Below, in pieces: positions 9,416 to 63,147 of a DNA stretch of 64,000 bases. The stretch spans positions 21,739,225 to 21,803,224 of the forward strand of contig OX387606.1 of assembly GCA_947568835.1 (NCBI GenBank), read 5' to 3'. Within the stretch, counting starts at the first letter, position 1. Each line of letters begins with the position of its first letter. The position numbers and the translations under genes are program-made. Under the pieces are notes generated by a model. It worked only from the letters and a program-made list of their open reading frames with translations. It ran no database searches and was not told the origin of the DNA. This DNA is from Protonemura montana. Lineage: Eukaryota > Arthropoda > Insecta > Plecoptera > Nemouridae.

Positions 9416-12400
9416 ATGTCCCTCGCAGAGAGGTACTCACTGTTGAAGACCAGCTGGAGCTACCAGGCACGGCAGTTCTTCGAGAACTCATCTCTCCATG
9501 GAGTGCGCTACATCGACGAGCCCAAGAGACCCATCTGTGAAAAGTGAGCCAAGCTGCAATCAATTTTCTGACGTCCTCTTCAAACCTTTCCCACGCTCAT
9601 TTAATGACTAAATGCAATGTGTGTGAAATCTAATTTAATTTGTAAACGCTTGCAATGCATTTATAATACAAATTAATTATTAGGAACACTAAAAACTGTC
9701 TCAAAAGTTGTTGCCCAAGCGGAGATTTGAGCCCCGATCTCCACCTGTCGCGGGTGTTGCTCTAACCAATTGAGCTACTTGGACATCCAGCATTTATTGA
9801 GAGGATAATAGTGCATTTGATGAGAATGACGGATCTTCTAGCAGTAGAACCAAGAGGCTGTGAATACTCACAGTCACTCTGATTCTTGTGACGCTATACT
9901 ATGCCACATCCATTTAATCTCCAGTAACTCCAATTTAACGTTTGAAGCGTTTTGTGCTGTGAAATCTGATTTAAATTGCAAACGCTTGCAATTCTCAAAG
10001 TAATTTTTTTATTACTATGAACACTCAAAACGAAACAAATGCAATGTATTTTTGCGTCATAAAAATGCCACGAGGAAGTGATCAATCTGATACGGGACAT
10101 GCAACTGCCACGCGCCTAGCGGGGGAATCAGCATTAAAATGATGCAACGTTTTATCGCTACTTGCACACCCTCCGAAATACACGACAACATTTCCATTGG
10201 AAATATCATTAAAATACATAAATGTCGCGCTTCCCTGGTCGTTATCTTACACTACCCTACACTACAATTGACTTACATGTCTCAAATAACCTGGATAGAG
10301 CATAGGAACCAGCCAGCTGATCTCAAATAACCTGGATAGAGCATAGGAACCAACCAGCTGATCTCAAATAACCTGGATAGAGCATAGGATCCAGCAAGCT
10401 GATCTCGAATAACCTGGATAGAGCATAGAATCCAGCCAGCTGATCTCAAATAACCTGGATAGAGCATAGGATCCAGCCAGCTGATCTCAAATAACCTGGA
10501 TAGAGCATAGGATCCAGCCAGCTGATCTCAAATAACCTGGATAGAGCATAGGATCCAGCCAGCTGATCTCAAATAACTTGGATAGAGCATAGGATCCAGT
10601 CAGCTGATCTCAAATAACCTGGATAGAGCATAGGATCCAGCCAGCTGATCTCAAATAACCTGGATAGAGCATAGGAACCAACCAGCTGATCTCAAATAAC
10701 CTGGATAGAGCATAGGATCCAGCAAGCTGATCTCGAATAACCTGGATAGAGCATAGGATCCAGCCAGCTGATCTCAAATAACCTGGATAGAGCATAGGAT
10801 CCAGCCAGCTGATCTCAAATAACCTGGATAGAGCATAGGATCCAGCCAGCTGATCTCAAATAACCTGGATAGCCCATAGGATCCAGCCAGCTGATCTCAA
10901 ATAACCTGGATAGAGCATAGGATCCAGCCAGCTGATCTCAAATAACCTGGATAGAGCATAGGATCCAGCCAGCTGATTTCAAATAACCTGAATAGAGCAT
11001 AGGATCCAGCCAGCTGATTTCAAATAACCTGAATAGAGCATAGAGTCCGGCAATCCATTGCTGGCAAAAAGTAGGAGTTCCTAAATCAGAGGCGTTTTTA
11101 GAGTTTTTGCAGCATGTTTTTATCCAATTTTGACCATTTAAGTGATGAAAACTACGAAAACCATGAAAATTACCGATTAAAACATTTTGTGACGAATTCT
11201 TTGAGAGAACTAAAAATCAGCGACTCTCAAGATGGCGGCCTTGGCTTTAAAGCCTCTCTATGACAACCGCTATCCAGGTTATTTGAGATCAGTGGATATA
11301 CCGCAGTATCTCGCACGCTGTTTTCTCCAACTACTGCCAGGCTGATGTGGTTCTGCGTGACGTCGGTGGGTGGCGTCGCGACGCTGGTCATCATCGTGTC
11401 GCTGTGGGAGAAGTTCCAGACCAACCCGACCATCACCGGTCTCGACACGGACTTCCACAACTGGGTGGTCGCCTTCCCAGCCGTCGCCGTCTGCCCCTTC
11501 GAGCCAGCGAACCGTTCACGCGTAGACGACCTCGTGCAAAGGTACGAACCGCCCGCATCCCCGATACGCCCCGATAAAGAGCAAAGGATCCAGCCAGCTT
11601 TGTGATATCTGATTGAAACTGCAAACGCTTGCAATGCGTGGGCTATGTTCTTATTACAAATACTACTAACATCTCAAAAATGTAAGCCCAGACGGGGACA
11701 CAAACCCCGACCTCCACCGCATATTTTAGAGAGGAATTTAGTGCATTTGATGAGAATGTCGGATCTCTAATGAGTAGAACCAAGAGGCTGTGAATACTTA
11801 CAGTCACTCTGGTTCTAGTGACGTTAATTAATTTTTATGCTGTGAAATCTAATTTAAATTGCAAACGCTTGCAATGTGCGGGGTATTTTATTACTAACCT
11901 ATCAAAAGTTGATGCCCAAACGGTACTCGTACATACCCGGTAATTGTGGTGTTATTTTAGTTGTGTTGTGAAGTGGTTTAATTGCAAAACGTTGTGCTGT
12001 TTCTCCACGGGAGTCATCCAGAGGCTTTTCATCTAGGAATTGGCAAGACGCTAGCGAGGGCAAGAAGGTTCGTTACGGCGACTTGCTGCTAGCGCTCGCC
12101 AACCTGTCGTGGCCGAGCCTAGCAACGTTCAAGGAGTTTGAACGAGACGGACTGACCTTGGAACAGAACGTGGACCTGCGCGCGCTGGCAAATGAGGTAG
12201 GTCTACTGCGCAGCCATAATGCACCTTGCAAGGCACTAGCCGTGTTACCTTGTCCATTTTGCATTTATCTACATGGTTTAGTGTCATTTCCAGAAAGTTT
12301 TTTGATATTTTTACTTCTCCTATTTTGTCGTTCTAATTTGTGTCTTTGTATTGTTATTTTGGTAGGTCCTATTCAGATACATTTATTTCTAGATAGGACT

Positions 12401-15400: not shown

Positions 15401-18400
15401 CTGAGCAGCTGTCAATCCGGCAACGTCGCTGTGTGTTCCCGGTATGACGTCAGCTCAGGGTCACAATTTCCAGCAGAGATGAAACTGAAAAAATAAAAAC
15501 ATCAAAAAAATTTAACAACATTTTTATTTTATGTTACGCTTGATAGTTTTTTATAAATCGCTCTATTTTTTCAGCGATTTTTTCTTAATTTTACTTCTAT
15601 AATTTTTTTTTATTTAGATTATTTTTATATTTGCGTGTATGTCAGTGTGTGTGTGATTAAGGTTAGGTTAGGTTAGGTTAGGCTAGTTTAGGTTAGGCTA
15701 GTTTAGGTTAGGTTAGGCTAGTTTAGGTTAGGCTAGTTTAGGTTAGGTTAGGTTAGGTTAGGTTAGGTTTGGGTAGGGTAGGGTTAATAATAATAATAAT
15801 AATAATAATATCTTTATTTGTCCTGAATTGATCATTTTACATGATATTGGATACGTCTGTGTCGTTAAGATATTCTGTCACATTATAAAAACACTTTCTG
15901 AGTAAGTATTGTTTTAACATATTTTTAAAATTTACATTTCTTTGAGTTTTTATACTAGTTGGCAGTTTGTTAAATAGGATAGAGCCTGCCCTTATGGGAC
16001 ATTTGTCAGAAAGTTTTAATTTCCTTCTTTCTACGTGAATATTGTTTAAAATTCTAGTGTTATGGTCATGGACCTTGTTGTTATTAATGACTAGGTGATT
16101 ATTTTCTATTACAAACATTATAGTGGTAAAAATGTATAAACAAGGCAGCGTCAGAATGTTAAAATCTCTGAACAATGTTTTGCAAGAGTCCTTATAAAAT
16201 ACGTCCCCACATGGGTCTTTACTTGCACCACCAAGAATTCTAAGTGCTCGCTTTTGCAATTGAAATAATCTCTTACTATGCGTTGAGTTACCCCAAAGTG
16301 CAACTCCATAGCTAATATAAGCATGTACATAAGCAAAGTAAATCATTTTTGCTGTCGCTGTATTACAAACATTCATAATTCGTTTCATGAGGTAGCACCC
16401 TGACGACACCTTTATACATATTTTAGAGATATGGTTTTCCCAGTTCAGCTGATTGTCTAAGAAGAGCCCTAAAAATTTCACGTCATTATGTTCTTTAATA
16501 CTACTACCTTCCAACAATATAAGGGGGCTAGATTCTAATATTACATTCTTAGTCGAGAATTGCATGTATACAGTTTTCTGTTTGTTTATAAAGAGATCAT
16601 TTTTTTCGCACCATTTTTCCAAATTCTTTACTTCATTTCTACTTGTAGCGGCAATGTCTTCTGTTCTTCCTTTGATGTAGTGTGTTGTGTCATCAGCGTA
16701 TAAAGTGAAGGATCCTGTCTGTACGCATTCTGAAATATCATTTGTATAAAGGATGAAAAGTAGCGGCGATATTGTCGCTCCTTGCGGGACCCCTACGTTA
16801 GTAGGTTAGGGTAGGGTTAGGTTAGGTTCTGTGAGATTGGGTTAGGTTTGGGTAGATTATAAGTATGCCAGTTAAGTTAATTTGTTCAGTTTGGTCATTT
16901 TTAATTTTCAATTTATAACTTAAAAAACTTATAATTTTAAATAAATTTTAAAAAATTACATTTAAAATTTTTTGTTTGCTTTTCTTATTAGCCAAATTCT
17001 TTTATAATTTTTTTATTGTAGTAGATGTTTAGTGTCTCAGCCTTTTCACGGTCCCTCTTGTCCGCAGGATGAGATAAAGCTGGTGACAGACGACATCTAC
17101 ACTTACACGGCCTGCATGAGCCAGTGCCGTATGAATAAAGCCAGGAGGCTTTGCAAGTGTGTACCGTTCTTCTACAAGCCAACAGGTGCGTGAAGATACA
17201 TCACAGTGTTGATAGTAATAAAATATCCGCTCATTGCTAGCGTTTGCAATTTAAATCAGATTTCATTGCATAAAACGCATCCAACGTCAAATTGGAGTTA
17301 CTCGAGTTTGACAGGGTGTGACGTGATATTGTGTCACTAGAATCAGAGTGACTGTGAGTATTCACAGCCTCGTGGTTCTACTCCTTGGAGAACTGTCATT
17401 CTCATCAAATACACTAAAATCGTCTCAAAAAGCCAGTGTCCAAGTAGCTCAATGGTTCAGAGCAACACCCGCGGCAGGTGGAGATCGGGGTTCGAGTCCC
17501 CGTTTGGGCATCAATTTTTGAGAGGTTATTAGTGTTCCAAATAATAGAGGCTTCCAGACACTTTGCTTCATCGTTTGTATTTTCTTGACGATGACTGAAC
17601 TGACAGTTTGCTGTGTACCGACCTTTCTGCCCTAGACGGGTACCGAACCTGCGACCTCGCGGGCCTCGTCTGTCTCTCCAAGAACATCGGTGAGTGATCG
17701 CGGCGAGACATAAGAGAAGCGCGCTCTGTGCATTGTTTTTAAATATATGAGCTTGATTATATATGAGTTTAGGCATCGATGTTTGAGACGGTTATAGTGT
17801 TGATAATAATGAAATACCCCGCGCATTGCAAGCGTTTGAAATTTAAATAACATTTCATCCTAATACAGCAACGAATCCAACTTCAAATTGGAGTTATTCG
17901 AGATTGACAGGTTGTTACGTGGTATAGCGTCACTAGAATCAGAGTGACTGTGAGTATTCACAGCCTCATGGTTCTACTCCTTGGAGAACTGTCATTCTCA
18001 TCAAATACACTAAAATCGTCTTAAAGAGACAGTGTCCAAGTAGCTCAATGGGTTAGAGCAACACTCGCGATAGGTGGAGATCGGGGTTCGACTCCCCGTT
18101 TGAGCATAAATTTTTGAGACGGTAGTTGTGTTCATAAAAGTAAAATACCCCACCCATTGCAAGCGTTTGCAATTTAAAAAAGATTTCATTTAAATATGAG
18201 CTTGATGTAGAGGTTAGCAAAAACCTGCAAGATGGCTTTAGAAGGCCATGTGAAGGCCAAGTGTTATGTTGCAGAAGCGGTGGTGCAAATGGAGGACTGC
18301 GCATGCGAGCTGGGCTGCGACAACACCGTCTACGAGGTGGAGAAGTTGCTCGACGTGAAGTGAGTGAGACACAAGTGTTTGAATGGTAGGGATGCCTTGT

Positions 18401-21203
18401 GTTTCAGGAGAAGACTACAAGCGATTTCAGACCAGTTCTTGCACGCCATCCCGGCCGGACCCTTGAACCTAGAATGCTACCATCACACATCCATTTTGTT
18501 GTGCACAATGGACCACAACTTCGTCCGTATCGAGAAGTATCTTAAGTATATTTTCTCCACAAGCGTCAGGGCAACACCGAACGGTTTGGCGTGTTGGAAA
18601 CACCGGTTCTCGTGAGATCACCGAAGTTAAACAACACTGCGCTGAGTCAGGTATTGGATGGGTGACCATCATACACATGACCAGTTCTGTTCGGGAGAGA
18701 GGTTGGACGTATGAAATCTAGTACAGCAAATTCACTCGCCTTGCTTATCAACCTCTCGACAGCATGGATTTGTGGAGGAATCCTGCTGTTCGAGTTGTAC
18801 CGTCCTTCGGAAGGGATGAAAAGCCGGAGGGAACCTTGGTGCTTTTCGACAGGAGTAGGCTACTTGCCAGCACCAAGGTTCCCCTCTCCCTTCTAGTCTA
18901 GGTTAGGTTCATCATCATCCTCGTCATCATCCACTTATTCACCGACGCCATTAGACCAGTGCCGCAGGGCCAGTTGTCAAAACAGTGCGTCGTTAAAAAC
19001 CACAAATAATAATAATAATTCAGGGCAACATCCAAGAAATAGAACGTAACTAATTTAAGGCTAAAATCAATTTCTTTGCTTCAATTCATACTCGATTACC
19101 GCAGACGCAGACTCAGTTTTTTTTTCTCCAATTAGTCCTGATTTTGTTCCGCAAACAGTTGATCAAAGTGAACGTGGAACTAGGATTGTAGCAAGTATAA
19201 TGATGCGAATGGCGCATCTGTCTGCGCAGGGTGTCTGATCTCATTCGGCCGCTGGAGGTCGCCTTCATCTCCTGGCCGATGGTCCGGTACAAACGCGAGG
19301 TACTTTTCGGCTGGGTCGACCTTCTCGGTAAGTGAAACTCATCGGTAGGGAACTATTGGAAAAATCCATTCCTAGCAAGAAGCGACATTATTCTACTTTA
19401 GGTTAGCATCAGCGTCATCCTGCAATCCCTGATACCTGTAAACCCCCAATGGTAGGACGTTTAACATTAGCGCTGTGACTCTGACTAAACCTGTAAACCC
19501 AATAGTAGGACGTTTAACATTAGCGCTGTGACTCTGACTAAACCTGTAAACCCAATGGCAGGACGTTAAACATTAGCGCTGTGACTCTGACTAAACCTGT
19601 AAACCCAATAGTAGGACGTTTAACATTAGCGCTGTGACTCTGACTAAACCTGTAAACCCAATGGCAGGACGTTTAACATTAGCGCTGTGACTCTGACTAA
19701 ACCTGAAAAACCAATAGTAGGATGTTTAACATTAGCGCTGTGACTCTGACTAAACCTGTAAACCCAATGGCAGGACGTTTAACATAAGCGCTGTGACTCA
19801 GACTAAACCTGTAAACCTAATGGTAGGACGTTTAACCGTTGAGTGTAGGTTATAGGTAGAGTTTCAACGTCAATGTTACAGTCTCTGCGTGAAAAATGAC
19901 TACCTTACCGACAAAAATGCAGAGTACCGGAAGTTCACGTTAAGTGGAGCCACTGTCGTATGAAATTTAATTTCGATATTTATCGTATTTACTCGCTTCT
20001 TAATATTGTTACGTGTATATCAATCGTTGAGGTAAACACTGATGAAGATTTTTTGAGCATGAAAAGTTTCAAAAGTGAGTTAACCTACGAGAAATATCGA
20101 AATTAAAATTCATACGACAGTGGCTCCACTTGACGTGAACTTCCGGTACTCTGCATTTTTGTCGGTAAGGTAGTCATTTTTCACGCAGAGACTTTAACAT
20201 TGACGTTGAAACTCTACCTATATCCTACACTCAACGGTTTAACATTAGCGCTATGACTCTGACTAAACCTGTAAACCCAATGGTAGGACGTTTAACATTA
20301 GCGCCATGACCCCGACTAACCCAGTTTGCTCGACGCTGCTGTCCCAGTGAGCTTCGGAGGAATCGCCGGACTGTTCCTCGGCTTCTCGCTGCTCAGTGGC
20401 GTCGAGCTGCTCTACTACTTTACTATGCGTGCCTGCTGCATGGTGTACCGCAACGCAGCCGACCTGCGCAAGCTGCAGATAGAGTACGCTGCGGTGAGTA
20501 CAACTCGCACAACCTTGATTGCGGTTGCCATGGAGAGACTTTGAAGCCAAGGCCGCCATCTTGGGAGCACCTGATTTTCAGTTCTCTCAAAGAGCCCAAG
20601 CCATGCTCAATGTTTTCGTCGGTAATTTTCGACGCTTTTGTAGTTTTCATCGCTTTAATGGTCAAAATTATTTGAACAAGAGTTTTACAAATTCTAAAAT
20701 TAGCATTGAAATCATAGGGACATCTCGGATTTAGGAACTCCTACCTGATGCCAACTATGGATTTCTAAGCTTTCATTTTGATCAGCTGGCTGGATCCTAT
20801 GCTCTATCCAGGTTATTTGAGACCAGCTGGCTGGATCCTATGCTCTATCCAGGTTATTTGAGATCAGCTGGCTGGATCCTATGCCCTATCCAGGTTATTT
20901 GAGATCAGCTGGCTGGATCCTATGCTCTATCCAGGTTATTTGAGATCAGCTGGCTGGATCCTATGGTCTATCCAGGTTATTTGAGATCCAGGTTATAAGG
21001 AGAGTCTGATATCACGGCAATGCCAACAGGTTGAGCGCCCACCCCTGGATCTGAGCCTCACGCCGCTTTTTATGCGTGAAAAGCATGCGCAGTCGACTCC
21101 TCCTACGCTGCGCGCGCAGCGAGGAGAGTTTATCCGCGTCGCTCCCTTCACGATTCGTCCGCTGCGCCCTCTGGCTCCTTACGGGCTCGAATACTTGCCC
21201 TAG
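9416..21203 (+). CDS. DEG/ENaC (pickpocket-like) amiloride-type sodium channel, complete 12-exon model
   Basis: The product is a trimeric sodium channel subunit of the plasma membrane with two membrane spans and a large cysteine-rich extracellular domain. Exons: 9416-9543, 11341-11541, 12037-12196, 13458-13606, 14722-14872, 15283-15441, 17068-17185, 17636-17689, 18275-18359, 19230-19327, 20348-20493, 21030-21203. All phases match and the sum is exactly 541 codons (540 residues). The N-terminus has FFENSSLHGVRYI, the HG gating motif region. TM1 is about residues 44-66, followed by FQTNPTITGLDT and FPAVAVCPF. Extracellular hallmarks are GFCFAFNS, the Y.AC...C....C.C.PFF.KPTG segment, and CACELGC. 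The pre-TM2 segment SWPMVRYKREVLFGW leads into TM2 with GLFLGFSLLSGVELLYYF (about residues 440-457), containing the G.S selectivity motif. The cytosolic tail ends GLEYLP. An in-frame TAG precedes the ATG in the same exon. The introns hold most of the repeats listed nearby. Subfamily and ligand cannot be told. Confidence 0.93.
9605..10015 (-). mobile_element. tRNA-bearing element with terminal direct repeats, copy 1
   Basis: The tRNA-like core lies at about 9712-9783 on the minus strand, with box A around TAGCTCAATTGGTTAGAGC and box B around GGGGCTCAAATC. Short inverted arms (CTCAAAA and TGAGAGG) flank the core. At both ends the unit carries the same direct repeat, GATTTAAATTGCAAACGCTTG-like followed by a TTAGGAACACT-like stretch. 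Lies in intron 1 of the channel. Confidence 0.75.
10272..11293 (+). mobile_element. 41-bp VNTR element, copy 1 (about 19 units plus unique arm)
   Basis: Tandem 41-bp units contain CTGATCTCAAATAACCTGG and ATAGAGCATAGGATCCAGC. The array runs to about 11045 and is followed by about 220 bp of unique sequence shared with the other copies (CTAAATC, then TTTTGACCATTTAAGTG, then CTCAAGATGGCGGCCTTG). It closes at 11270-11293 with the same terminus in reverse orientation (TATCCAGGTTATTTGAGATC). The element is thus bounded by inverted copies of one sequence, and its right end is 47 bases from the channel's exon 2. Confidence 0.85.
11595..11930 (-). mobile_element. tRNA-bearing element, copy 2 with half of the tRNA deleted
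   Basis: Both terminal repeats are present (CAAACGCTTGCAATG at about 11620 and 11863). Only the T-arm half of the tRNA-like core remains, around GGGGACACAAACCCCGACC, before the body resumes. Confidence 0.65.
13050..13275 (+). mobile_element. Non-LTR retrotransposon fragment (ORF2 C-terminus)
   Basis: A short open frame ends in KGAKLFKSLPASLRD, then NFQKRVKVYLMGKEFY and a stop. This resembles the C-terminus of jockey/CR1-type ORF2 proteins, where a ..LFN.LP..I....NF...LK.YLL..FY pattern is common. The reverse transcriptase core is absent. It lies in intron 3 of the channel and is clearly a remnant. Confidence 0.6.
13810..14400. repeat. 16-bp minisatellite
   Basis: Tandem GACATTGACAGCTGCT units with variants at the CTGCT and CATT positions. 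The last part carries a derived TGACATTGATAACTCC type. The array lies in intron 4 of the channel. Confidence 0.95.
14921..15192 (+). repeat. Three tandem 5S-rRNA-like SINE heads
   Basis: Three units of about 92-96 bp each hold GGAAACACCGGTCCTCGT-like sequence, ATCACCGAAGTTAAGC, and CAGGTATTGGATGGGTGACC. The SINE body does not follow any of them. The junction ACCGAACGGTTTGGC links consecutive units. Confidence 0.88.
15659..15785 (+). repeat. Interstitial (TTAGG)n telomere-type repeat, left block
   Basis: Runs of GGTTAGGTTAGGTTAGGTTA with GGCTAGTTTAGG variants. TTAGG is the ancestral arthropod telomere unit. The block is interrupted at 15785 by a non-LTR retrotransposon and resumes at about 16800. 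Confidence 0.9.
15786..16803 (-). mobile_element. 5'-truncated non-LTR retrotransposon inserted in (TTAGG)n
   Basis: On the minus strand the open frame begins GVPQGATISPLLFILYTNDI, then FTLYADD, the catalytic motif of reverse transcriptase (around 16689-16705), and continues to a stop at about 15837. The C-terminal region has LFQLQKRALRILGG and ILFNKLPTSIK, typical of the thumb/C-terminal part of jockey- or CR1-like elements. A (TAA)n tail closes the 3' end at 15786-15812. The frame is open, so this is probably a recent dead-on-arrival copy. TTAGG-type sequence on both sides shows where it inserted. Confidence 0.87.
16799..16860 (+). repeat. Interstitial (TTAGG)n, right block
   Basis: GTAGGTTAGGGTAGGGTTAGG continues the telomere-type repeat on the far side of the retrotransposon, then degenerates. 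Confidence 0.75.
17222..17560 (+). mobile_element. tRNA-bearing element, copy 3
   Basis: The tRNA-like core at about 17438-17511 has box A TAGCTCAATGGTTCAGAGC and box B GGGGTTCGAGTCCCC. The arm CGTCTCAAAAA precedes it and TTTTTGAGAGG follows. The upstream body has CATTGCTAGCGTTTGCAA and CTAGAATCAGAGTGACTGTG. It lies in intron 7 of the channel. Confidence 0.8.
17780..18200 (+). mobile_element. tRNA-bearing element, copy 4
   Basis: Same orientation and structure as the preceding copy. The tRNA-like core lies at about 18031-18104 with box B GGGGTTCGACTCCCC. Terminal repeats with TTGCAAGCGTTTG occur at about 17827 and 18158. It lies in intron 8 of the channel. Confidence 0.82.
18575..19019 (+). 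mobile_element. Full-length 5S-headed SINE
   Basis: The order is head with GATCACCGAAGTTAAACAAC and GGTATTGGATGGGTGACC, body with CAGTTCTGTTCGGGAGAGAG and GCATGGATTTGTGGAGGAAT, pyrimidine segment with TAGTCTAGGTTAGG, and tail with CCGACGCCATTAGACCAGTG, CAAAACAGTGCGTCGTT and (AAT)n. It is about 445 bp and is the reference copy for the family here. It lies in intron 9 of the channel. Confidence 0.9.
19434..20325 (+). repeat. 53-bp satellite, split by a foldback element
   Basis: Units contain GGACGTTTAACATTAGCGC, TGTGACTCTGACTAAACC and TGTAAACCCAATGG. About eight units lie before 19835 and more resume at 20238. A second array of the same family is at 24729-25100. Located in intron 10 of the channel. 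Confidence 0.93.
19836..20237. mobile_element. Foldback (MITE-like) element with TTTAA target duplication
   Basis: The ends are CCGTTGAGTGTAGG and CCTACACTCAACGG, a perfect inverted pair, and the inverted homology continues inward for about 140 bases on each side, up to AATATCGAAATTA. TTTAA flanks both ends (19831-19835 and 20238-20242), and the satellite unit continues across the insertion. No coding capacity. Confidence 0.9.
20497..20998 (-). mobile_element. 41-bp VNTR element, copy 2
   Basis: The unique arm (CATCTTGGGAGCACCTGATT, TTTTCATCGCTTTAATGG) is followed by five 41-bp units in reverse orientation (CTGGCTGGATCCTATGCTC, CAGGTTATTTGAGA). It begins immediately after the donor of the channel's exon 11 and ends 31 bases before exon 12, so the last intron is essentially this element. 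Confidence 0.85.
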
Positions 21204-22047
21204 AGGCCTTCAACACACAGGGCACTGGCAGAATCACTGGGCTTTGTTTTTATACTGATCATAATCGAGTTTACCGTTTTGAAATCTGATTTTAATTACA
21301 CAAGCTTGCAATAGTAACCTTGGAAAACTGAAAACCTCTCAAAAACTGGTGCCCAAATAGGGACTCGAACCTCGATCTCCAGTCCCCGACCAGTCCCCGT
21401 TTGGGCACCAATTTTGGCAAGGGCATTAGTGTTTCAAACAATAAAAACGAGTAGACCGCTTCTTCACAACTAACTTCAAATGATAAATAACTCGTGGTAG
21501 ATTCTCTGGTTCTTGGAGGGGTTCTTCACGTTGGAGGTGCTTTGTATTTGTGCTATCTTCTAGTTAAAGGGTGGACGTGAAACGACTTGTAGTGACGTTT
21601 GACTCTCAGAAACATCATGGCTAGTGGCGTCTTTTCTTGATTTCACTCTAATTTCCACTTCAAAGAACATTTTCTATTTCTATATTTCTATATGCTCTTC
21701 TACTGTGATGACGGTGGGGACTTGATTTGGGATCAATTCTGTGTCTTACTTACCACCAAATTCTTACCGTCTTATCTTTGCGACCACCCTGTCTTGATTT
21801 GGTTGTAAACAAAGCACTCACGATCACGAACTAAAAGTTTATGTATTTTCAAAACTATTTATCGATAAACAATGCGATTGCTAGAAATCAGCTGGCGAGG
21901 AACTACAATGTAACATAACTGTATACTTGACTGTAATACTAAGTTACTTTTGAATCTCTATTCACCTCTAACATTATTTCACTGCATTTAACACCTGGTC
22001 TATTGCTAGTTTGGGAGGTAGAGGAAGGGAAGGGTTGAGGGTCAACG
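21204..22047. other. Intergenic region between convergent channel and lectin genes
   Basis: Contains a rearranged tRNA-bearing fragment at 21275-21450 in which the T-arm half of the tRNA is present as an inverted duplicate (GGGACTCGAACC and GTCCCCGTTTGGGCACC). Nothing else recognisable. Confidence 0.5.
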
Positions 22048-25000
22048 TCAAAGCGAACGCTCGCAGATGGCCTTGAGCCGGGTAGAGCTTCCATGCGCGC
22101 GCAGTCCGCGCAGTCCGTGCAGCGCAGCGTACGGTCGGGTGCGCAGTTCGGCTGCGCGTGGCACCGTGTCGTCCCAGCGCACGAAGCCAGCGCTTTCCAG
22201 AGAATCTCCTGAACAGAATCGGAGCAAGGTGAGTCACACAAAGCATGCGCAGGGGATGGGACTTAGAACCGTTTAAATCAAGTCATATGTAGTTTATCAA
22301 TATATCGGACAAAAGGATCAGTTGCTGATGCAGGAATAAATCTGTTTTGAATTCAGGTTTGAACATGGTAAGATATTTTGTTCAAGTTCTTCGGGAACGT
22401 AGCTCCAAAGCCCGCTCCAAATACGGATGCCTCTGCTTGATGTCCTTGTTGACTCTATACTTGGGCAGATATAGTTTCTGGGCGTGGTCGTTGCTTCCGA
22501 TGACTGAAGGTTTAGCTTGAAGGTGAGCCATTCGCCATTGGACAGCTCTTCGGAAGGACAAGACCAGGGTGAGGGTGTCCTGTGTGCCGTTAGACAGCAG
22601 ACTGCGTGCAGGTACTGGGTTCATATCCTAAGCTTGGTTATTTAGGTCAGTTTTCATTTTAAAATGCCGACGAAAAAATAATCAGTGATTAAAATTAGAA
22701 GTGGAGACCGTATGGGATGAAGCAGGAATAACAGGATAATAGGGCTGCAGGTACCACTGCGATCTTCAAAGTGGAAGAGACAGCAATGGCAAGCAACTTA
22801 CAGGCGAAGTTGTTCTGAGACCACGCCTCGAGACAATGTGCGAGCTTAAATGAAGCAATACCTGTCAAAATATCTGTAAAGTGTTCAGCAATTGTAATTG
22901 GAAAGTTACACATAAAATGTCATTCAATCAATACAATGGCGGTGTACTTGACGGTTGTTTATTGCACTTTTGGTCCATGAAGTACAAAAATACCTTGGTC
23001 AACGTTTCGTTGGCGTTGGCGTTGGCGCCGACATCTTCAGGACCGACCGAGGTCCTTTTTCAGGACAATAGTCCATCACAGCAGAGCACAACCTTCGAAT
23101 GCACCAGCATCTGATCGCTCATCTTAACCACTAGCCCATTTTAATCAATACAATCAAGACATGCAACAGTCAAATCATAGGCTTCTTTGACTCTTACCGT
23201 GAACCGTGGTGAAGCCCGCGTTCTCGTGATAGAGCGCATGTGCCCCGACCCAGATCGCCTCCTCGCCCGGAAACGCCCGAATCAGCGTTCGGACCTCGTC
23301 ATCGCTGTTGAGTACGACCAGATTGGCGTGGTCTGCACGGCAGGTTGCCCATGCATCTACCCAGGAGGCGGGGGACGCCAGGAGGCGGTAGCGTCCATGT
23401 GGCGCCAGGCGCAGGTAGTCCCTCCTGCCAGACAGGTACCAGTTGGGACAATAACAACCAACAGCTTAACGTTCCTTACGAAGGACGATACAATGCGAAC
23501 AACAGGATTCCTTCACAAAGCCATGCTGTCGAGAGGTTAATAAGCAAGGCGAATGAAGTTGTTGTACTAACTTTATGATGGTTTACTCCGAGAGATAGTA
23601 CTAACTTTCATCCCTCTAACCTCTGTCCCGAACTGAACTGGTCATGTATATGATGGTCACCCATCCTGTACCTGACCCAGCGCAGTGTTGCTTAACTTTC
23701 ATCCCTCCAACCTCTCTCCCGAACATAACTAGTCATGTGTAAGATGGTCACCCATCCAAAAATTGACTCAGCGCAGCCTTGCTTAACTTTGGTGACCTGG
23801 TGGCGTTGGCTGCTAGTGTTGCTACCTACCACTGGCGGCGCTGACAAAGCGAATTGAGCGGCTGACGACACTCGACGTCCACTAGACCGGAAGTCGTCAT
23901 GGCGACGCAGTTCCTTGACATGCCGCCGTGCGGCGCCCCGCGTGCCCAGTGGCGGCCCACGGCCTCCCCGATCTGCTCGCCTGGCATCGTCAAACAAACG
24001 AGGTGAGTCGACGGGGGGAGATGGTTCTTGGCATCAAGAATGTCATGACAAGAAACAAATAGGTGGCCGAACGGAGACTCGAACTCCGACCTCCACCTGT
24101 CACAGGTGTTGCTCTGACCCATAGTGATAGGTACTTGGAAATGTCAGTTGATAAGAATGACGGATCCCCAAGGAGTAGAACCAAGAGGCTGTGAATACTC
24201 ACAGTCACTCTGATTCTAGTGACGCTATGCTACGTCACAGCCATTCAATCTCCAGTAACTACAATTCAACGTTGGATGCGTTATATGCTATGAAATCTGA
24301 TTTAAATTGTAAACGCTTGCAATGGGCAAAGTATTTCATGACGAGGAACAATGATAACCTCTCAAAAGTGTTTGAAAGACGTTGAGTACCATGCAAGGTG
24401 ACGTATCGCCCCTCAAGGAACTTGTCGTGGATGCCCACGTGGATGGCCGTCACGTTGAAGGTTAGCATCAGTCTTTGAACGACGTCCACCTCAGCGTCGG
24501 AGGTTGGCACCAACAGTTGGCTGTCACTCTGGGAACAATGCTGGGGTGGGGGTGCACCCCCCTTCTGCTCAGAACATGTCAAAAGTAACGTACTCTGCGC
24601 TTACGGCATCAATTCATTTAAAACTGCAGCTCAATTCTCGTTAGCTAGGTTTTTTTTCAGGAAGACAAGAAACCCACAAACTGGTAATTCTTAACTAGAT
24701 CGAAGATATTCGATCACTTCTAAAAAGATCTAACATTATCGCTGTGACTCTGACTAAACCTGTAAACCAAATAGCAGGACGTTTAACATTAGCGCTGTGA
24801 CTCTGACTAAACCTGTAAACCAAATAGCAGGACGTTTAACATTAGCGCTGTGACTCTGACTAAGCCTGTAAACCCAATGGCAGGAAATTTAACATTATCG
24901 CTGTGACTCTGACTAAACCTGTAAACCCAATGACAGGACGTTTAACATTAGCGCTGTGACTCTGACTAAGCCTGTAAACCCAATGGCAGGACGTTTAACA

Positions 25001-30532: not shown

Positions 30533-30834
30533 CGTTGTGGGGTTAGTTTCGTTCCTTGGCGATTTGTTAAATAATTGCCATGGCAACCTAAAGGTTTCCG
30601 CCGAATGCTATCATCACGCGTATCTGTAAAAGTGTTACGTAAATAGTCGCCGCGTCTCTAAAATGTAACAATATTTAATGACCTTTAGTTAGCATTCAAA
30701 ACGCATTTTAAATAGTTTTTCTTAAAACTAGTGCTAAGGATAAATCAAGTAGACATGAGTCTAAAAACCACCATAATGACCTATGATTTTCTAAACGTGT
30801 CTGGACTCCGTTTATGTTCCTGTTGTGTTCGTAC

Positions 30835-52500: not shown

Positions 52501-55500
52501 AGGCTGTTGGGCTGGGGATGAACTTTGGCTGACCATCACCACCTGCATTGGTGGCGGCTGCTGCAGCATCAGCTGATTGGGCAACTGTTGCTGTTGCTGT
52601 TGAAGCATCACCTAGGGGAAGACAGGTGACCATTTGATTTATCTGCTCACTCAGTCACTTGAACACAGTTTGTACAGAATCTGAAAATGTTGTAGCGCAA
52701 TGTTCTAATGTACGTTGCCACAAGATGGTCATCTATAACGTCGATGTATAACCAAAAAATAAATAAATCTTCATCAAGCATTAGATTATCTTCTCGCTCG
52801 CAGAAACATCTGAACTTCACAAACTATGTTAGTGCTTTGAATTATAGACATTTTTTATTTTAGTTAGATGCATTAAGGAAGCCAGAACTAGGTTAGTTTC
52901 AATTTTCTTTATATGGTTTCGGGGTTGTTTTCAGAGCCGTGTTATGATGTTGAAATATGTTTCGTGGTTTTGCTCTGCGTTAAAGAGTTTTTTGGACCTT
53001 AAAAGGGCCTGAAGACTCAACATTTCAACGAGGCATTAGGCCCTTTTAGGACCAAAAATCTCCTCAAAACAGAGCAAAACCGCAAAACATATCTCAACAG
53101 TTATTATTATATTTATTAGTCAGTACATTACAATTTGTAAAAATAAACTCGTGTAGAATGTAGCAACATTCAGCAAATAGCAATGGAAAATACAATTTGC
53201 AATTTTTTAATTTGTAATGTGCCAAAGAGCTGGGATAACGAATATGTTGATTGGGAAAGTAAAGGAAGAGTACAGAACTTACCAAGCGGGAGTGGCTGGC
53301 CGCGATAGTGGAAATTCTTTGTTAACGTTTCGGTTCTTACCTATCACTGGAGAGAAGAGACTGATTGCTATCCCTACCTGTTTCATAATGTGGGGTAGGA
53401 ATTTATCAAGTAAAAATGTATTTAAATTGACTTAAAAACTTTCCCGCTCTATCGCTGCTTTGATTATATCTCGTCGGAAAAATTGGTTGTTTGTTACTTA
53501 TCATTTAACAACCAGTTTAATTTTTTTTTTTTCTTCGGTAAACCTGTATAACTTTACGTCAACAAAGAGTGAGCTTGCTGCGCTCACCTGTAGATGGTGT
53601 GCAGCAACCATGGGTCCCTGGTGAGAGGGTATGTGCAGGCCAGGCGGGGGCAGCTGCACCTGTTGCTGTAGCACCTGATGGGGCGGCTGGGTCAGTTGCG
53701 GGGGCGGCACACCAAGCATCGGGGGCGGTCCAGGCAAGGACACTGAGAAGCACATTTTAAATTATTAGGAAAACCAATAACCTCTCAGGAATTGGTGCCC
53801 AGACGGCGATTCGAACTCCCATCTCCACCTGTCGCAGGTGTTGCTCTAACCAATTGAGCTACTTGGACACTGGCTTTTTGAGAGGATTTTAGAGTATTTG
53901 ATGAGAATGACAGATCTCCAAGGAGTAAAACCATGAGGATGTGAATACTCACAGTCACTTGATTCCTGTGACGCTGCTGACTACCTGACATCCATTCAAT
54001 ATCCAGTAACTACAATTTAACGTTTTATGAGTTTTATGCTGTGAAATCTTATTTAAATTTCAAACGCTTGCAATGAGTAAAATATTTTATTGTTAGGAAC
54101 ACAGAAAACCTCTCAAAAATTGATAATTTTCAATTGAAACAGTTTTCACAAGACATTTGTTTATTTCATTTTCAGTCTCTATTTGCAGTGATTTGAATGG
54201 TCTGAATTCAGATAAAAAGCAGGGCCTCGCGAGCGCTCTTTACCCCGTTGAAGCAATAAACAATAAAGCTAGCAATACAAGCAATAAAGAGGTGGAATAA
54301 CAAGAAAAAACTAAAAAAAAATCATATGAAAAATGTAAACAACTTTGGAATGCTGGAAATGAACCAAGGACCCCGGTACCCACTCACCGGGCGGCTGCTG
54401 GGCGTACATCATCCCGGGCTGCAGGTCGGGACCGGGAGCCGGCACCATGCCCGGAGGCAGCGTGCCAGGGAATCCGGCTGAAAACAACACGATGTCATTA
54501 CTCATAATAGAACATCCAAGAGAATATTACAGTTTGTAGACTATTCTTGGTTTATTTTTATGAATTTTGCTTGGTTTTGGGCAACTTTTCCTCTGGGACC
54601 AACATATTTCACGTTTATCACATGAATTAACCTTCTATTAAAGCCACAAATCTGATGACGTCATTTTCAAGTAACAGGCTATGTGGCTATGTCTGTAACG
54701 CAGAATTCACTGGCAAGTTTACTTCTTGAATATAAATTACGAAAATCGGTTGAAAACGGCTGGAAATGGTTTTAATTTTTACACTTTTTGTGAGCACGAC
54801 CGAACGTGACTATTGTACGGTGATTTGTTCTTAAACTGGCTGGTAAGGAGAGATTTTGACGGTTTTCAAACGGGATTATCCAAATAAAAACTTGCTTTTA
54901 GTCGATGAAGAGTCTCTTGGCGTAATTTAATTATATTTTCGTAATATTTAAAGGGTATCAAACACAACACATATTTAATAAGTTTGGCTATCAAAGAAAG
55001 ATTTTTTTAAATCTGGGATGGCAATCTTTTGACAGCTACTATAATTTGTTTTCGAAACTATTGTCTCGGCCACATAGGAATTCACAGAGTTTCCACAATG
55101 CAGTGACTCCCAGTGACCCATGCAGCTAATTTCAAATACAGAGAATGGGTTTCAAAACATGAAATGGGCAATACTCGAGTTTTTAATAGACAATTTAATC
55201 TAAAACAGGCTGGCAAGGAAACATTTTGGATGGTTCAAAATGACACTCCAAGTTCATTGGTATAAAATTTTAAATTTTATTTTTAAATTTTTAATTTTAG
55301 GGGAGGTATCCTAGGCATCTTGAGACTATTTTTGTCTAGCCTGAGCTTAATTGCTAATGCCCTGAATGACTTCTTATGAGACCAGAAACCATTCTTCCCT
55401 GCATTGGTAACAACTTAAGTGCCTCCAAAAGCAACATCAAAAAGGATGTCAAATGCATCAATTTGCATTTTGCATTATTATTATTCTGATTCTTCATTAT

Positions 55501-58500
55501 TATTAAGTCTAAAGGGCATTTTTCTTAGTATACTCAATTGGTTGTGGTCCTATTATTGGAGGCTTTGGAAAAGGGTTTTGACCCTTTCAAATAACTTGAA
55601 TTACTCAATTTAATCACATCACTCTTATCTGTCACTTCACATACGGCAGCTGCGTACTCAGCAGGTGCACTACTTATTTTATAAATGCCATATTTTATTG
55701 CTTGTACAGCAGCCAAATACATTCGCGCATTGGGCCATATACGAACGAACATTCTCTGGAAATTTTCATTGCCACATCCCAGCGCTAATCACATCGCTCG
55801 TGGCAAGCAGAAGTGCAAACGGTGGCTTACCCTGCTGCTGAAACTGCCGCAGTTCGGTTTGCACCGTGTCCACCAGGTTTGCTGCGAGCTGCCTCGCCGC
55901 TTGCCGAACATCAGACTTTGAGTGCCTGTCACAAACCAGAGTCGTCAATCTCATAAAACTAACAATGCTATGCTATCAAACTAAACAACCGTCGGCTTTA
56001 CAGTTGGCCAGAGTCAAAGCCACTGATCTCAAATAACCTAGATAGAGCATAGGATCCAGCTAGCTGATCTCAAATAACCTGGATAGAGCATAGGGTCCAG
56101 CCAGCTGATCTCAAATAACCTGGATAGAGCATAGGATCCAACTAGCTGATCTCAAATAACCTGGATAGAGCATAGGATCCAGCCAGCTGATCTCAAATAA
56201 CCTGGATAGAGCATAGGATCCAGCTAGCTGATCTCAAATAACCTGGATAGAGCATAGGATCCAGCCAGCTGATCTCAAATAACCTGGATAGAGTATAGGA
56301 TCCAGCTAGCTGATCTCAAATAACCTGGATAGAGCATAGGATCCAGCTAGCTGATCTCAGATAACCTGGATAGAGTATAGGATCCAGCCAGCTGATCTCA
56401 AATAACCTGGATAGAGCATAGGATCCAGCTAGCTGATCTCAAATAACCTGGATAGTGCATAGGATCCAGCTAGCTGATCTCAAATAACCTGGATAGAGCA
56501 TAGGATCCAGCTAGCTGATCTCAAATAACCTGGATAGTGCATAGGATCCAGCTAGCTGTTCAAAATTGAAGTCAGGCAATCCATTATTGAGGAGTCTCTA
56601 TATTTGAGGTGTCCCTATGATTTCAACGCTAATTTCATAGTTTTTTTTAACTATTTTTCAACCAGTCTGAACCAGACAACAACAAAATGGCAGCTCACTC
56701 GACGCAGATGTGGAGAGGTTCCGGTGCCTCAGTTCCCGTTCCCGGCTCGGCAAAGCCCGAGCCGAGACCACGCAAAGTGACGAGCGCGCCTGTCTCTGCT
56801 CGAATGTAGTGAAGGTTGGCACCCCCAGAACCAAGCAGCCGGTTGCGCAGGTCGAAGTTGGGTGGGGCATGCGCCAGGGACACGCCCACTTTCTCTGCGT
56901 GAGCCAGCGCGGGGAGCTCGGTCTGCTGGCTGATTACTTCCTCGATGCGCAGCAGGGCAACTGTACCGTGAGGTAAGGTTTGCAAGTTGAATCACTCGGA
57001 AAGTACAGTCGGCACTTGCGTGATATATTCAGATAGACTGAGGCTACATGAACATGTTTAAATGTTATTTCCAACGGTAAATTTGCAACTGCCTTGCCGC
57101 TAAGTCGCAAGATCATATTTCACTGGCGATTACAAAGAGTAAGATGCACAAATATGTCACCAAAAATCTATTTATGCGACTACATATCAATCTATAGCCG
57201 CTGCTTATACAGCTATGTGAAGTTACTTTGAATCAAGACAATCACTTACGATCCACAGATTGCTTTGTGCTTCCTTGGATATGCAGGTATAGAGCACGCT
57301 CAGTTGGATTACGAGCCTTTTCTTCACGTGTCAGGTACCGTCCTCTTGTCGAAACGGCTGCTCCAGAATAATGATTTATTTCTTCTTGCGTCACACCCTT
57401 GGTCAACAGGTTGCGCGCCGTTCCAGCCACCTCGTTGATCTCAAATTCAGCCGTGAACAGATCTATAGCTGAACGGAAACCGCTGCTTTTTCCCACCTAC
57501 AACCAAAAGAAAACCCAGGTGAAATATGATATTTGCTTCCTATTCTACATCTATCTAAGTTTGAAATGATATCAGTAAAAAATCAGAGACTCGCATAGAA
57601 TGCCTACCTTGATCACATGCGTTTCTGGCTGCTTCAGCTTGCCTTTTGCGATTAGCACTGCATTCACTTTGGCTGCGGCTTCGCAGGCTGCCACAAGGCT
57701 GTTTCTGTTTAACATGTCACTGAAAAACAATGCAATTGTTTCGTTTCCCACTTACATAGGTATGTTGTTGTTTTTAGGAGCCCATAACAAAAAAATCTAG
57801 ATTGCTTAGCTCACCTTTTGTCCAATTGTACATCGTATGTGCCAGAAACACGTTGTAACTAAGTTACCTAATTGTGATTTTAAAATAAATTATGATCTGT
57901 ACTTGTGCTCGCGTACGTACCAATAACCGAGACCAACCAAAAAAAGAAATCGCCGGACCAAAACCCTAATTCCACCAAATTCGAGATCGATCTGGCCATT
58001 AGCAAAATGAGCAAATCCACTGCTGCCACACTGACAAATTTGACGTTATTTTTCGGGGTCAAATTTAAAAATCTTGCTCCTCGTTCTAAATGCTAAGGAA
58101 TTTACTGTTTTCTATAAAAATGTTATAATAACGTCGAGTTAAATAAATATATTTAAACTATTTATCAGCTGTATTTTTTTTCTATTCAGCAAATATATGA
58201 ACTGCTTAAAACCTTCTTCACGAAATATATATTTCAGCAATTGAAAGATCCTCGGTTCATATGCTAGTTTGTTTACACATTTTTCCTGTCCATTACAGTC
58301 CCTTCCATCCATTGATTACTGGTTCAAGCTCTTTTTTTTCGAGTACCAGACAAACAAAAAATCCTGCAACTTTCATTCACCTTTCATAGAAAAAGCAGGG
58401 GTGCGGGGCAGTTGAATAAGCATACTTGAGGTGCTAAGTACTCGTAACATTTTCCTCAGCCCTTTTCTTTCCTGCAGGATCCCATCTCCCACCCTTGAAT

Positions 58501-59312: not shown

Positions 59313-59639
59313 CTGCAAACAATGGCGCAGCACAAAACAGAATAATAATTGTATTAATCGACGCTGTCAAAGTCTACAGGCAGACTTCAGAGAAGCAAGA
59401 ATTCTTTTGAAAAACTGTTTTCCAAATGACTTGAAATATAAAAGATTATATTTTAATATTTTAAACGATTGTAATCAGCAGGTTTAAGGTCATGCGAGAA
59501 GATTTTTCAATCCCCTTCCTGAAGGGATTTAAAAAAAATAACAAGGCACTAAAAAAACTTCATAATGGCACACAACTTTGAAGGCAAGAAATAGTTTCAA
59601 CCCTTGTCGTGGTCAGTGGGAATAAGTTTTCCCGCTTTT

Positions 59640-60035: not shown

Positions 60036-60308
60036 CCACTAGTTTATTTAACAGTTCTGCTCAATATTAATAAAACAAATTTATATTGGACCATTTTTAA
60101 AATAGTAAGCGTATAAAAAGAGAAATACTAAATCTTGAAAAAAATCATTTAACCAAGAAAGGTTTAATCTGCCAAAGGGAAACTTAAATAATAACAGCAA
60201 AACAGAGCAGATAAAAAATAAATAAAAATAAAAGTTACAGAGTTTTAACATTATTTTTATTGGCAACTGAATTTCAGAAAGTTTTAAATGTTGGCATGGT
60301 GACGCTGG

Positions 60309-63147
60309 CTAGGAGAGATCTTGAAGGCGTATGCGATTATGATCGTACGGATGTCTCATTACGATGCCGCTCGAGATCAAGCTCAACAAGTTCGAAGAGA
60401 TCTGTTCGCTATCGGTGACCGCATCAATGTACAGGTCGCCTTCGCTGAAGAAGGCTGAGGTGAGATTCTGGAATCCAGGGGCGCACATTCATTTTACAAG
60501 GTGATTAAAGGTGACATATGGCATGTAATAATTGCGTAGAAGATATGATTGATAGATCAATGTCTTTAATTGTCTTAATTTAAATAAATTACAGGCCAGC
60601 AATTTTGTTGAGCTTTCATTTTTACACATTCTTGATATAACAGGTGCAGAAACAAACTCATCCAGGGTATTTTTGTTATTAGGAACACTAAAAACCTCTC
60701 GAAAATTGATGCCCAAACGTGGACTGGAACCCCGATCTCGACCTATTGCGGGTGTTGCTCTAACCAATTGAACTACTTGGACACATAATTTTTGAGATTA
60801 TTTTAGTGCATTTGATGAGAATGACGAATCGGGATCTCCAAGGAGTAGAACCAAGAGGCTGTCAATACTCACAGTCACTCTGATTCTAGTGACGCTATAC
60901 CACGTCACAACCATTCAATCTCCAGTAAGTCCAATTCGAATTCCAATTTTTGAGAGGGAATAAGCTTAGAGCACAAGTGTTCCTAAAAATAAACAAAAAT
61001 GCACTGGACTGATACAGTATATTTTACTTTGGAAGGGGATCTAGACTGGAGACTGAATCCATATCCCCCCAAATTGAATAGATCGAGTTGATGAAAATCC
61101 AAATTGTTTGGATCAATGATTAAATTGAATTAATTGCCCTGCATTGGCTGTTGAATTAGCATCCCATCCTAGAGCTGCTATGTACTTATCCATACGAGAC
61201 GAGCTATCTCTGCCTCTTGTTATCTTGAGGGAATCCCTTGCCCCAACCTGCAAAAGCTGGAATATGTGTGCCTTGATAGCTCAGTTGGTAGAACCGTTGA
61301 GTGTGTAGAACACCCTACCAGCAATTGGGAGGTCGCACATTTTTCCAGTCTAGCTCCCTTTCCATCCATTGCTTGCTGGTTTCAGCTCCCTAGTAGCATC
61401 ACCAGACAAACCAAAAACTCAGCACAGTAATGTGATTTTGCTGGAGTCAATCTGCGGTGAACTGAGTTTTAAACTCACCATGAGAAGATCAGTCATATCA
61501 TCGTCATCAGCAAAAATTTCATTAATCATCGTCATCTGAAAACAACACAACACAACGACATAAAATGCCTGGCGAATTTATGTAGAAAAATAAAAAGATT
61601 TTTTACTGCTTCCTTGCTCACTTTTCTCTTCGGACTTACTGCTTTGCATTGGCTAAATAGAATCGCCCAATGCAATTCCACCAGATTAGACACAGCCAGA
61701 TCAGAATCAAAGATGGGGTAATTTTTATTATCGGCACACCACATTACAGCCGAATATTTTGATAAAAACTACGGATGAATAATTACAGAATTGTAAAAAA
61801 CTGATTTTATTCAACCAAGATCAACGGCTGTTACCGATTCTGGAACTTGAAACATTTCTAATGAAGACTGTGATTCTGGTTTCAGCTCTTCAAAGTTTTC
61901 AATAAAGTTAACAGTTTCAGTTTAAGGCCCTGCTGTATACTACGCCATAAACGTTGCCAATGAAAGCTTAGAAAAATTTTCTTACCAGCCACTTGCGTTG
62001 CGTCTTAAACAGTCTGTTAACAGCGGCAAGTTTCTCAGTCAGCCGCTCGTCGTCGAGCATTTCTCCTTCTGTCTGACGCAACTTTCTCAGTCGCACTAGG
62101 AGTTCAACTTCATCTTTGACCCTAAACACCAGACCCACTCTCTTACCACTTTACAATATCTTACCAACCAAATAATTGTCATACAGAAAGGACATTCCAT
62201 CAAAACTAGGGGTGCAATAAACAATATTTCTTTTAGAAATAATTTTTATGGAAAAAAATTGAAAAAAAAACTATCTTTAAGGATTAATAAAATCAAAAAG
62301 TGTCAACATTTTAGAAAGTTCAAACAGTCGACGTTAGAATGGCTAAGAAACCTATCATAGTTTCTTTGAATCTGAAAATGTATGCATAAAAAATAGCTTT
62401 TTGCTTATTAAAATACATTTTTACTTTACTGCTATGAGCATTAATTGAACACAAAAATTGATAAAAACGGGGACCCTCGTTAAATTATAAAAATACTTCG
62501 AGCATTGCAAGCATTTGCAATTTAAATCAGATTTCATACAATTATTATTATTGTTATTACCATCAAGCATTTTACCAATATAACTTATGCTATTTTTTTC
62601 AAGCAAAGTCCATCTAATTTGCCTCTCTTACTTTGTTTGGTTGATCTTTGATTCTTCGATTTCAGCCTTCTTGTTGCGCACAAGCTTCTGTATATCTTCC
62701 AGTTGCTCGCTCAGACTCTGCACCAACTGCTCGGCCGATATCGGTAAAATCTCTGGCGGCTGCGCTTCAATAGCTGCACACAGCTTTGTTGCAAATAACG
62801 CTTGCTGAAATTTGGCAACTAAGAATACAACAGCGATCGGCCAGCAACATCTATTCAACTTCATGGCTACATTCAAGAACTTCTAATAATATTTTCAGAT
62901 CTACTCACCGTCGCAGGCGTCGCCAACTTAACGTTTAAATCAGGAACGTTATTGGCCAGCCACTTGCGCCTCTCGCTTGCATCTTTCCGCAGCCCAGCCA
63001 GTCTTTTCTCTGCTTCTGAAACAACTTCTTGAAGAGTTGGAACTACCTAGAAAATGAGGTTAAGATAATTATTTTCCTGTCAAATTCAAGATTTTACGAA
63101 CGAAATGAACTACATTAAACACATACTTCTTCAGTTGTTTGTGCCAT
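60309..63147 (-). CDS. CENP-K, inner kinetochore (CCAN) subunit, complete 6-exon model
   Basis: CENP-K belongs to the CENP-H/I/K/M module of the constitutive centromere network. Exons on the minus strand: 63147-63127, 63046-62909, 62804-62632, 62121-61986, 61535-61479, 60467-60309. All sites are GT-AG, phases match, and the total is 228 codons including TAG (227 residues, somewhat shorter than the vertebrate proteins). It starts MAQTTEE. The chain is largely coiled coil (EVVSEAEKRLAGLRKDASER; LSEQLEDIQKLVRNKKAEIE; VRLRKLRQTEGEMLDDERL). Family marks are PPEILPISAEQLVQSL, which matches the conserved P.E..P.. segment, RLFKTQRKWL, and the C-terminal signature LLSLISSGIVMRHPYDHNRI with RLQDLS at the end. 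The gene lies tail-to-head with KHDC4, which is on the same strand. Confidence 0.9.
60670..60935 (-). mobile_element. tRNA-bearing element, copy 7
   Basis: The tRNA-like core lies at about 60708-60782 on the minus strand (plus-strand CAATTGAACTACTTGGACAC closes it). Body marks CAGTCACTCTGATTCTAGTG and ATTCAATCTCCAGTAAG follow. The copy lies in CENP-K intron 5. Confidence 0.78.
61265..61420 (+). mobile_element. tRNA-derived SINE fragment
   Basis: TTGATAGCTCAGTTGGTAGAA (box A) and AATTGGGAGGTCGCACATTT (decayed box B) precede CAGTCTAGCTCCCTTTCC and TTGCTTGCTGGTTTCAGCTC. Same family as 50458-50575. It lies in CENP-K intron 5. Confidence 0.7.

Follow-up and report, generated by a model that had tools for sequence, protein, structure and literature searches.

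A 330-nt tRNA-bearing repeat of Protonemura montana, probably moved by Penelope-like elements

The window analysed here, a stretch of 64,000 nucleotides from the plecopteran Protonemura montana (assembly GCA_947568835.1, contig OX387606.1, forward-strand positions 21,739,225 to 21,803,224), harbours numerous copies of a short repeat with a tRNA-like gene inside. The initial annotation described at least seven copies flanked by terminal direct repeats, together with four fragments resembling solo long terminal repeats (LTRs), and the question raised by this locus is what kind of element leaves such copies and by which machinery it moves. Analysis of the window and of loci fetched from the rest of the genome indicates that the repeat is probably a non-autonomous retroelement with a 330-nt unit, which carries a tRNA-like RNA polymerase III (Pol III) module and is moved by a Penelope-like element (PLE).

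The unit and its two fixed ends

The repeat is real and abundant. The 18-nt core singled out in the initial annotation was found 4086 times by a search of the whole genome (258 Mb in 34 contigs), the reversed control not at all, and with up to three mismatches it matches the window 18 times against 0.04 expected, some of these matches being both strands of one near-palindrome. The unit common to the copies is 330 nt long. Its tRNA-like part lies at unit positions ~169-241 (tRNA sense), between CGTCTCAAAAA and TTTTTGAGACG; downstream of it GTGTTGATAATAATAAAA ends near position 280, designated site B, where A-runs of variable length are found, and is followed by a near-palindrome, ATTTCATC and a few A/T-rich letters up to the end near position 330, designated site A. 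The inverted arms CCTCTCAAAA/TTTTGAGAGG and the tRNA-like core reported earlier are both present: ARAGORN calls three tRNAs in the window (9710-9785, 17437-17512 and 18033-18107), the Rfam tRNA model agrees with these calls, and it also matches in the fetched loci. The 14 tRNAs called by ARAGORN in ten loci comprise ten Ser (cga), two Ser (tga), one Pro and one Leu. Box A and box B motifs (TAGCT and GGTTC, the same as in the LTR-bearing element Helenus) are present in the tRNA-like part. Its consensus, as we read it, is devoid of the usual U33, which is expected in ordinary tRNAs, and this part is probably not a working tRNA. With a best reading frame of only 97 aa over three tandem units, the element has to be a non-autonomous passenger. 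In some copies, at loci L004, L007, L008, L032 and L044, a 52-nt piece of the tRNA-like part (unit ~169-220) is arrayed head to tail, up to about ten times; the GGGG/TCCAAG joint of these arrays suggests that they may have arisen by re-copying at a short match.

The forms of the element were determined by strand-switching alignment of 128 loci, in which 152 groups yielded 119 distinct elements after locus-edge copies, groups without a 28-nt stretch and duplicates had been dropped. Three samples contribute to this set: L039-L098 were chosen by an exact match of the 18-mer at the site-A end and cannot gauge the frequency of copies devoid of site A, L009-L038 were retrieved with a 361-nt query taken from a copy in tandem form, with a bias towards long arms, and L099-L128 were chosen by the B-end pattern, many of them repeating loci of the other samples. 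The commonest class (47 of 119 elements, and 33 of 68 in the 18-mer sample) runs inward from site A on one strand and outward to site B on the other, so that one arm of the hairpin starts at unit ~330 and the other at ~280. A/A elements are absent among the 119, and four were scored as B/B. The remaining elements are single-strand copies of up to ~1.3 units, a few of them longer, and the shortest copies measure 35 nt. Continuous arms longer than one unit number 36 (the longest 548 nt), most of them from the tandem-query sample; in the 18-mer sample they account for only 4 of 93 arms. It is single-strand copies exceeding one unit that gave the appearance of terminal direct repeats, which are in fact partial tandem copies of the 330-nt unit running beyond one period.

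Target duplications flank 34 of the 82 site-A elements, including 27 of the 47 A/B elements, whereas five sets of swapped-flank controls gave 0, 1, 1, 0 and 0. A score of at least 8 was required, the search covering lengths from 8 nt upwards; 31 of the duplications measure 9-14 nt, one 8 nt and two 18 nt, with the mode at 12-13 nt. The elements bearing them span 35 to 566 nt; in the window, duplications flank the tandem-form copies at 9621 and 17767. Around the 34 duplications the target is A-rich and then C/T before the duplication, and any base and then T-rich after it, a symmetric pattern that would be expected if one enzyme cuts both strands. Target and element letters overlap at both site A and site B, which fits priming from both cut ends.

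These lengths bear on two explanations of a different kind. The first is a terminal-repeat retrotransposon in miniature (TRIM) of the Helenus kind, with LTRs containing a tRNA-like sequence. Helenus (TRIMp3) is the nearest named tRNA-bearing terminal-repeat element among the literature matches listed: it, too, carries a box A and a box B in a tRNA-like sequence within its repeated end, and direct repeats are indeed seen in three window copies. However, Helenus has true LTRs with a primer binding site and a polypurine tract and duplications of 4-5 bp (PMC10886601), whereas those of the present element are mostly 8-14 nt, its ends vary inside the repeat, and it forms inverted as well as very short copies, down to 35 nt. 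A TRIM of this kind is extremely improbable, and the assignment to the Helenus family was rejected on duplication length.

The second is a tRNA-derived short interspersed nuclear element (SINE) moved by a long interspersed nuclear element (LINE), with the inverted copies being ordinary products of twin priming. The likeness to such SINEs extends to the Pol III boxes, the short and dispersed copies, the target duplications and the A-rich end; LINE machinery is known to leave duplications of this size, A-rich ends and 5'-truncated copies, and also to give rise to twin priming, and the genome contains many RVT_1 matches of LINE-like length. Twin priming should, however, give varied internal second starts, in contrast to 47 A/B pairs and not one A/A, the target is symmetric rather than L1-like, and PLE fragments of this genome obey the same two-end rule. 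In addition, the tRNA-like part is situated mid-unit rather than at the 5' end, and the element has two fixed 3'-type ends and inverted hairpins, unlike a tRNA-derived SINE. Movement by a LINE is hence considered unlikely. The earlier view that the element is not a standard SINE or TRIM is upheld by the inverted forms, the partial tandems and the duplications of mostly 8-14 nt.

Within the 18-mer sample, both arms tend to have their inner ends at unit 225-254 (40 of 91 ends against 10.1 expected), a zone corresponding to the 3' edge of the tRNA-like fold. As arms starting at 330 and at 280, 50 nt apart, stop in the same zone, position matters and not the distance copied. Of the 36 arms exceeding one unit, 20 stop in this zone one unit further on. 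The arms are joined without microhomology in 23 of 43 cases and with little overall. Taken together, these data point to a tRNA-sense RNA as the template of both arms. An element moving at the DNA level, i.e. a Helentron type with asymmetric terminal inverted repeats, as is characteristic of Helentrons, or else a miniature inverted-repeat transposable element or foldback transposon, would agree with the asymmetric inverted ends and the near-palindrome beside one of them, but not with variable duplication lengths, A-runs of variable length at site B, or variable inner ends that cluster at the tRNA fold, and is regarded as highly unlikely.

Variants are shared between the two arms of an element in 163 of 231 columns (0.71), while in the unrelated-arm control the mean was 0.52 and the maximum 0.64 in 200 shuffles; close inverted pairs carry the same trinucleotide in 12 of 14 cases against 4.6 expected. 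Because the arms share variants above chance, the sequences suggest that each insertion may derive from one RNA or from RNAs of one source.

The long arms also recall animal retrozymes, and the template may conceivably be a circular RNA that is reverse transcribed, an arrangement compatible with a PLE helper. Animal non-LTR retrozymes are short non-coding units of ~150-300 bp in tandem, likewise partial, with PLEs as suspected helpers (PMC7761336), and the arms that pass one unit and stop at 225-254 one unit further would be in line with such a template. Yet these long arms are rare in the 18-mer sample, in which the inverted form dominates, and a tRNA-like module stands in place of the hammerhead: neither strand of the consensus unit contains a CTGANGA core with GAAA downstream, and Rfam gave no ribozyme match of weight in four loci, a weak test, as Rfam also missed the hammerhead-like motif of the PLE. 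A retrozyme-like origin is therefore a possibility to be entertained, albeit a doubtful one.

A Penelope-like element in the same genome

The pattern RYVDDxF, which we take to be a reverse transcriptase (RT) motif of PLEs, matches the genome 45 times against 4 in controls. One locus reads GIAMGSPLSP...RYVDDTFLVW, a fragment presumed from its motifs to be of a PLE, and 66 places in the genome match this PLE-like RT fragment, one of them within an 856-aa open frame. In locus L132 an ATG is in frame with the RT match of the locus and lies 459 codons upstream of it. The same locus contains a hammerhead-like core, CTGAAGA...GCGAAACGTC, unscored by Rfam; the motif occurs 595 times in the genome (control 0). 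The 100 listed places include 17 close head-to-head pairs, and apart from these no two of them lie within 600 nt of each other.

The PLE fragments compared were those present in loci fetched for other reasons. Seven distinct ones, L092 and L128 being one locus, have two arms of 40 nt or more in opposite orientation, and each of the seven is bounded at 395-403 on one side and at 338-350 on the other (L132 coordinates, PLE sense). Fragments that have a single arm, or whose opposite pieces are shorter (L019, L020, L022, L027, L032, part of L016 and two in the window) were excluded from this comparison, and that at L022 2125-2269 has the site-A end of the PLE and no clear second arm. Duplications of 11, 11 and 13 nt, each with one mismatch, flank three of the six fragments tested, while none of 30 swapped pairs scored as high and none reached 6.5; judged by the cut-off of 8 used for the tRNA element, only the one at L038 passes, the other two scoring 7.2 and 7.3. 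The PLE fragments thus follow the two-end rule of the tRNA element, with a tail of ~57 nt versus 50 nt. No informative PLE 3' end was found downstream of the RT fragment in L130.

At L016 1273-1853, L032 2044-2301 and L112 1448-1754, PLE-like fragments directly adjoin tRNA elements; at L016 a PLE arm ending at site A is succeeded by a tRNA-unit arm that ends at site B. These three loci yielded no joint target duplication that would mark a chimeric PLE/tRNA insertion made in a single event. Many copies of the PLE-like RT with frames of 310 or 487 aa, on contigs C1, C2, C4, C5, C12, C13 and C14, are located ~0.5 Mb or less from the end of a large contig where that end is known, and are perhaps subtelomeric.

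Copies in the window

Of the 37 clusters listed in the window, 13 were kept, as they had also been found by BLAST; the 24 dropped ones were mostly of low identity or within simple repeats. The copies, one of the associated target duplications and two PLE fragments are as follows (strand omitted where none is assigned).

9610-9620: target duplication on the left of the copy at 9621; its right-hand counterpart lies at 10037-10047
9621-10036, minus strand: tandem-form copy from unit 323 downwards, passing a full period and reaching ~248; tRNA-like core 9710-9785
11603-11932, minus strand: tandem-form copy, tRNA-like core partly deleted
17205-17546, plus strand: one-period copy, unit 262 round to 277; tRNA-like core 17437-17512
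17767-18193, plus strand: tandem-form copy, unit 233 round to ~330; tRNA-like core 18033-18107
21278-21446: diverged copy in hairpin form, 325 to 211 on the minus strand and then a plus arm to 280; absent from the initial annotation
24055-24369, minus strand: copy of roughly one period with hardly any terminal repeat
25674-25807: hairpin-form copy with arms 283 to 254 (minus) and 227 to 330 (plus); formerly a solo repeat at 25712
30661-30779, plus strand: PLE fragment (L132 278-397, PLE sense), ends at PLE site A
31038-31202: diverged copy in hairpin form (identity 0.68) with arms 322 to 234 (minus) and 244 to 283 (plus)
33996-34083, minus strand: single arm from near site A, unit 321 to 235
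37057-37141, plus strand: single arm, unit ~231 to 320
52819-52906, plus strand: PLE 5'-region fragment (L132 116-204, PLE sense)
53755-54124, minus strand: 370-nt copy, unit 282 round to 241, terminal overlap ~41 nt
60671-60993, minus strand: diverged copy from 280 to 15 on the minus strand, with a short arm on the plus strand (242 to 279); site-A end not seen
62422-62541: hairpin-form copy, minus 282 to 225 (this arm from the cluster listing alone), plus 264 to 328; identity 0.75; formerly a solo repeat at 62465

The common layout with a terminal direct repeat, formerly ascribed to seven copies, holds for three of them (9621-10036, 11603-11932 and 17767-18193), where the repeat measures ~75-100 nt. 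In the others the overlap shrinks to ~41 nt (53755-54124), ~16 nt (17205-17546) and ~5 nt (24055-24369), and the copy near 60670 turned out to be one unit with a short inverted arm. The supposed solo LTRs fared similarly: those at 25712 and 62465 possess a second, inverted arm and are hairpin forms, those at 34000 and 37060 show one clear arm only, and the main form in the 18-mer sample is an inverted one, so that solo LTRs do not describe the anatomy of these copies. Target duplications of the window copies proved to be clear at two copies and weak at a third. The copy at 9621-10036 is flanked by AAATGCAATGT on both sides, that at 17767-18193 by 13 nt (17745-17757/18194-18206) with 9 extra nt on the left, and that at 25674-25807 by a weak 11-nt duplication with one mismatch (25575-25585/25805-25815); none was found for the copy at 17205-17546.

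Other repeats share the window. Arrays of a 41-nt satellite (AATAACCTGGATAGAGCATAGGATCCAGCCAGCTG and similar) are present in both orientations at 10280-11043, 20780-20988, 39758-40050 and 56023-56558. A 53-nt tandem array is present twice, at 19434-19836 and 24731-25096, and the former is adjoined by a 158-nt inverted repeat (19830-19987/20086-20243, 96%). Five 5S rRNA-like sequences are dispersed over both strands (18576-18696, 26321-26441, 27653-27771, 29105-29211 and 29765-29884) and are possibly 5S-derived SINEs.

Proposed mechanism and related systems

The ends, the target duplications, the cluster of inner stops and the same two-end rule in the PLE fragments are observed directly in the copies. 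In the scheme proposed below, the enzyme or helper, the template RNA, the order of steps and the role of the tRNA are inferred. The template would be a tRNA-sense RNA of one unit or more. A PLE endonuclease would cut the two strands of AT-rich DNA in a staggered manner, so that 3' overhangs of ~12-13 nt result, and both 3' ends would prime reverse transcription at fixed internal sites of the RNA, site A (~330) being used on one strand and site B (~280) on the other. Reverse transcription would then proceed on either side until it stops, often at the 3' edge of the tRNA-like fold and in some cases beyond one whole unit, and the two cDNAs would be joined, mostly with little or no microhomology. 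The predicted products are inverted hairpins, partial tandems, very short copies and an A-to-B 'tail'. As for the more specific version, in which the repeat represents a tRNA-bearing, SINE-like class dependent on Penelope machinery, with sites A and B used on opposite cut strands and the tRNA-like fold blocking both cDNAs, we incline towards it by a small degree only.

The scheme has precedents. A purified PLE protein cuts and extends both strands, and its reverse transcription begins at two neighbouring sites inside the RNA, between which the 'tail' lies (PMC11167929), while rotifer Penelope copies have inverted pseudo-LTRs, a 31-bp tail and duplications of 8-10 bp (PMC3846280). Hence, although the initial annotation knew of no named family with this plan, its architecture as such is not without precedent (PMC11167929, PMC3846280). 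The tRNA element resembles the Penelope/Poseidon clade in its inverted and partial-tandem copies with the tail at one end only, in duplications of 8-13 nt at AT-rich targets (PMC11167929, PMC3846280) and in two internal starts of reverse transcription with both strands primed, which for the tRNA element would follow from its copies. It differs in having a tRNA-like core and neither a long open reading frame nor a hammerhead core, a tail of ~50 nt as opposed to 30-40 nt, and strict A/B pairing.

Several observations weigh against this interpretation. The published PLE enzyme showed no strand difference in its start site (PMC11167929), unlike the strict A/B rule. A T5 run directly follows the tRNA-like part, and such a run should terminate Pol III; this stop precedes sites B and A and leaves the promoter of a full-length template unexplained. 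Covariation of the tRNA and the extended stem, analysed in 53 of the 61 distinct copies (the other eight, with indels or odd length, having been excluded before counting), did not exceed that of shuffles, so that support for the fold comes solely from conservation and energy (z -3.87 in the one copy folded). No duplication was detected at 48 of the 82 site-A elements. In the broad set the trinucleotide differs between the arms in 20 of 39 A/B elements and agrees in 19, against 8.9 expected; two independent RNAs for the two arms were nevertheless disfavoured owing to the shared variants. The 50-aa RT fragment of the PLE had no match in Pfam or PDB, nor its 93-aa N-terminus in Pfam, and the assignment to PLEs was consequently made from its motifs, the length of its frame and its architecture. 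A GIY-YIG endonuclease near the PLE was not found, the only match of the Pfam search being read as SLX1-like and the C-terminus of the 856-aa frame lying beyond the sequence covered. The ends of the unit and those of the PLE, compared for one family, showed no similarity (score 17 against a shuffle mean of 18.5; p=0.69, a crude shuffle), so that the helper can only be presumed. We know of no autonomous element with A/B ends, the fetched loci being 1.3-3.4 kb long and not searched for RT genes.

PLE integration is poorly known, and a 2024 study calls itself the first with an active full-length enzyme (PMC11167929). Among the matches listed, the titles and abstract beginnings of open-licence papers describe no PLE-dependent tRNA element, whereas animal retrozymes are suspected passengers of PLEs (PMC7761336). 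If the proposed mechanism is true, the thousands of copies would constitute a natural record of Penelope-type integration, in which the short insertions of this family let both ends, the target duplications and the inner stops be read directly. The mechanism also makes a testable claim beyond the enzyme study (PMC11167929), namely that site A is used on one strand and site B on the other. The Penelope system would then carry a tRNA-bearing passenger where hammerhead-bearing ones are suspected (PMC7761336), which would add a new type of passenger to a little-understood class of retroelements.

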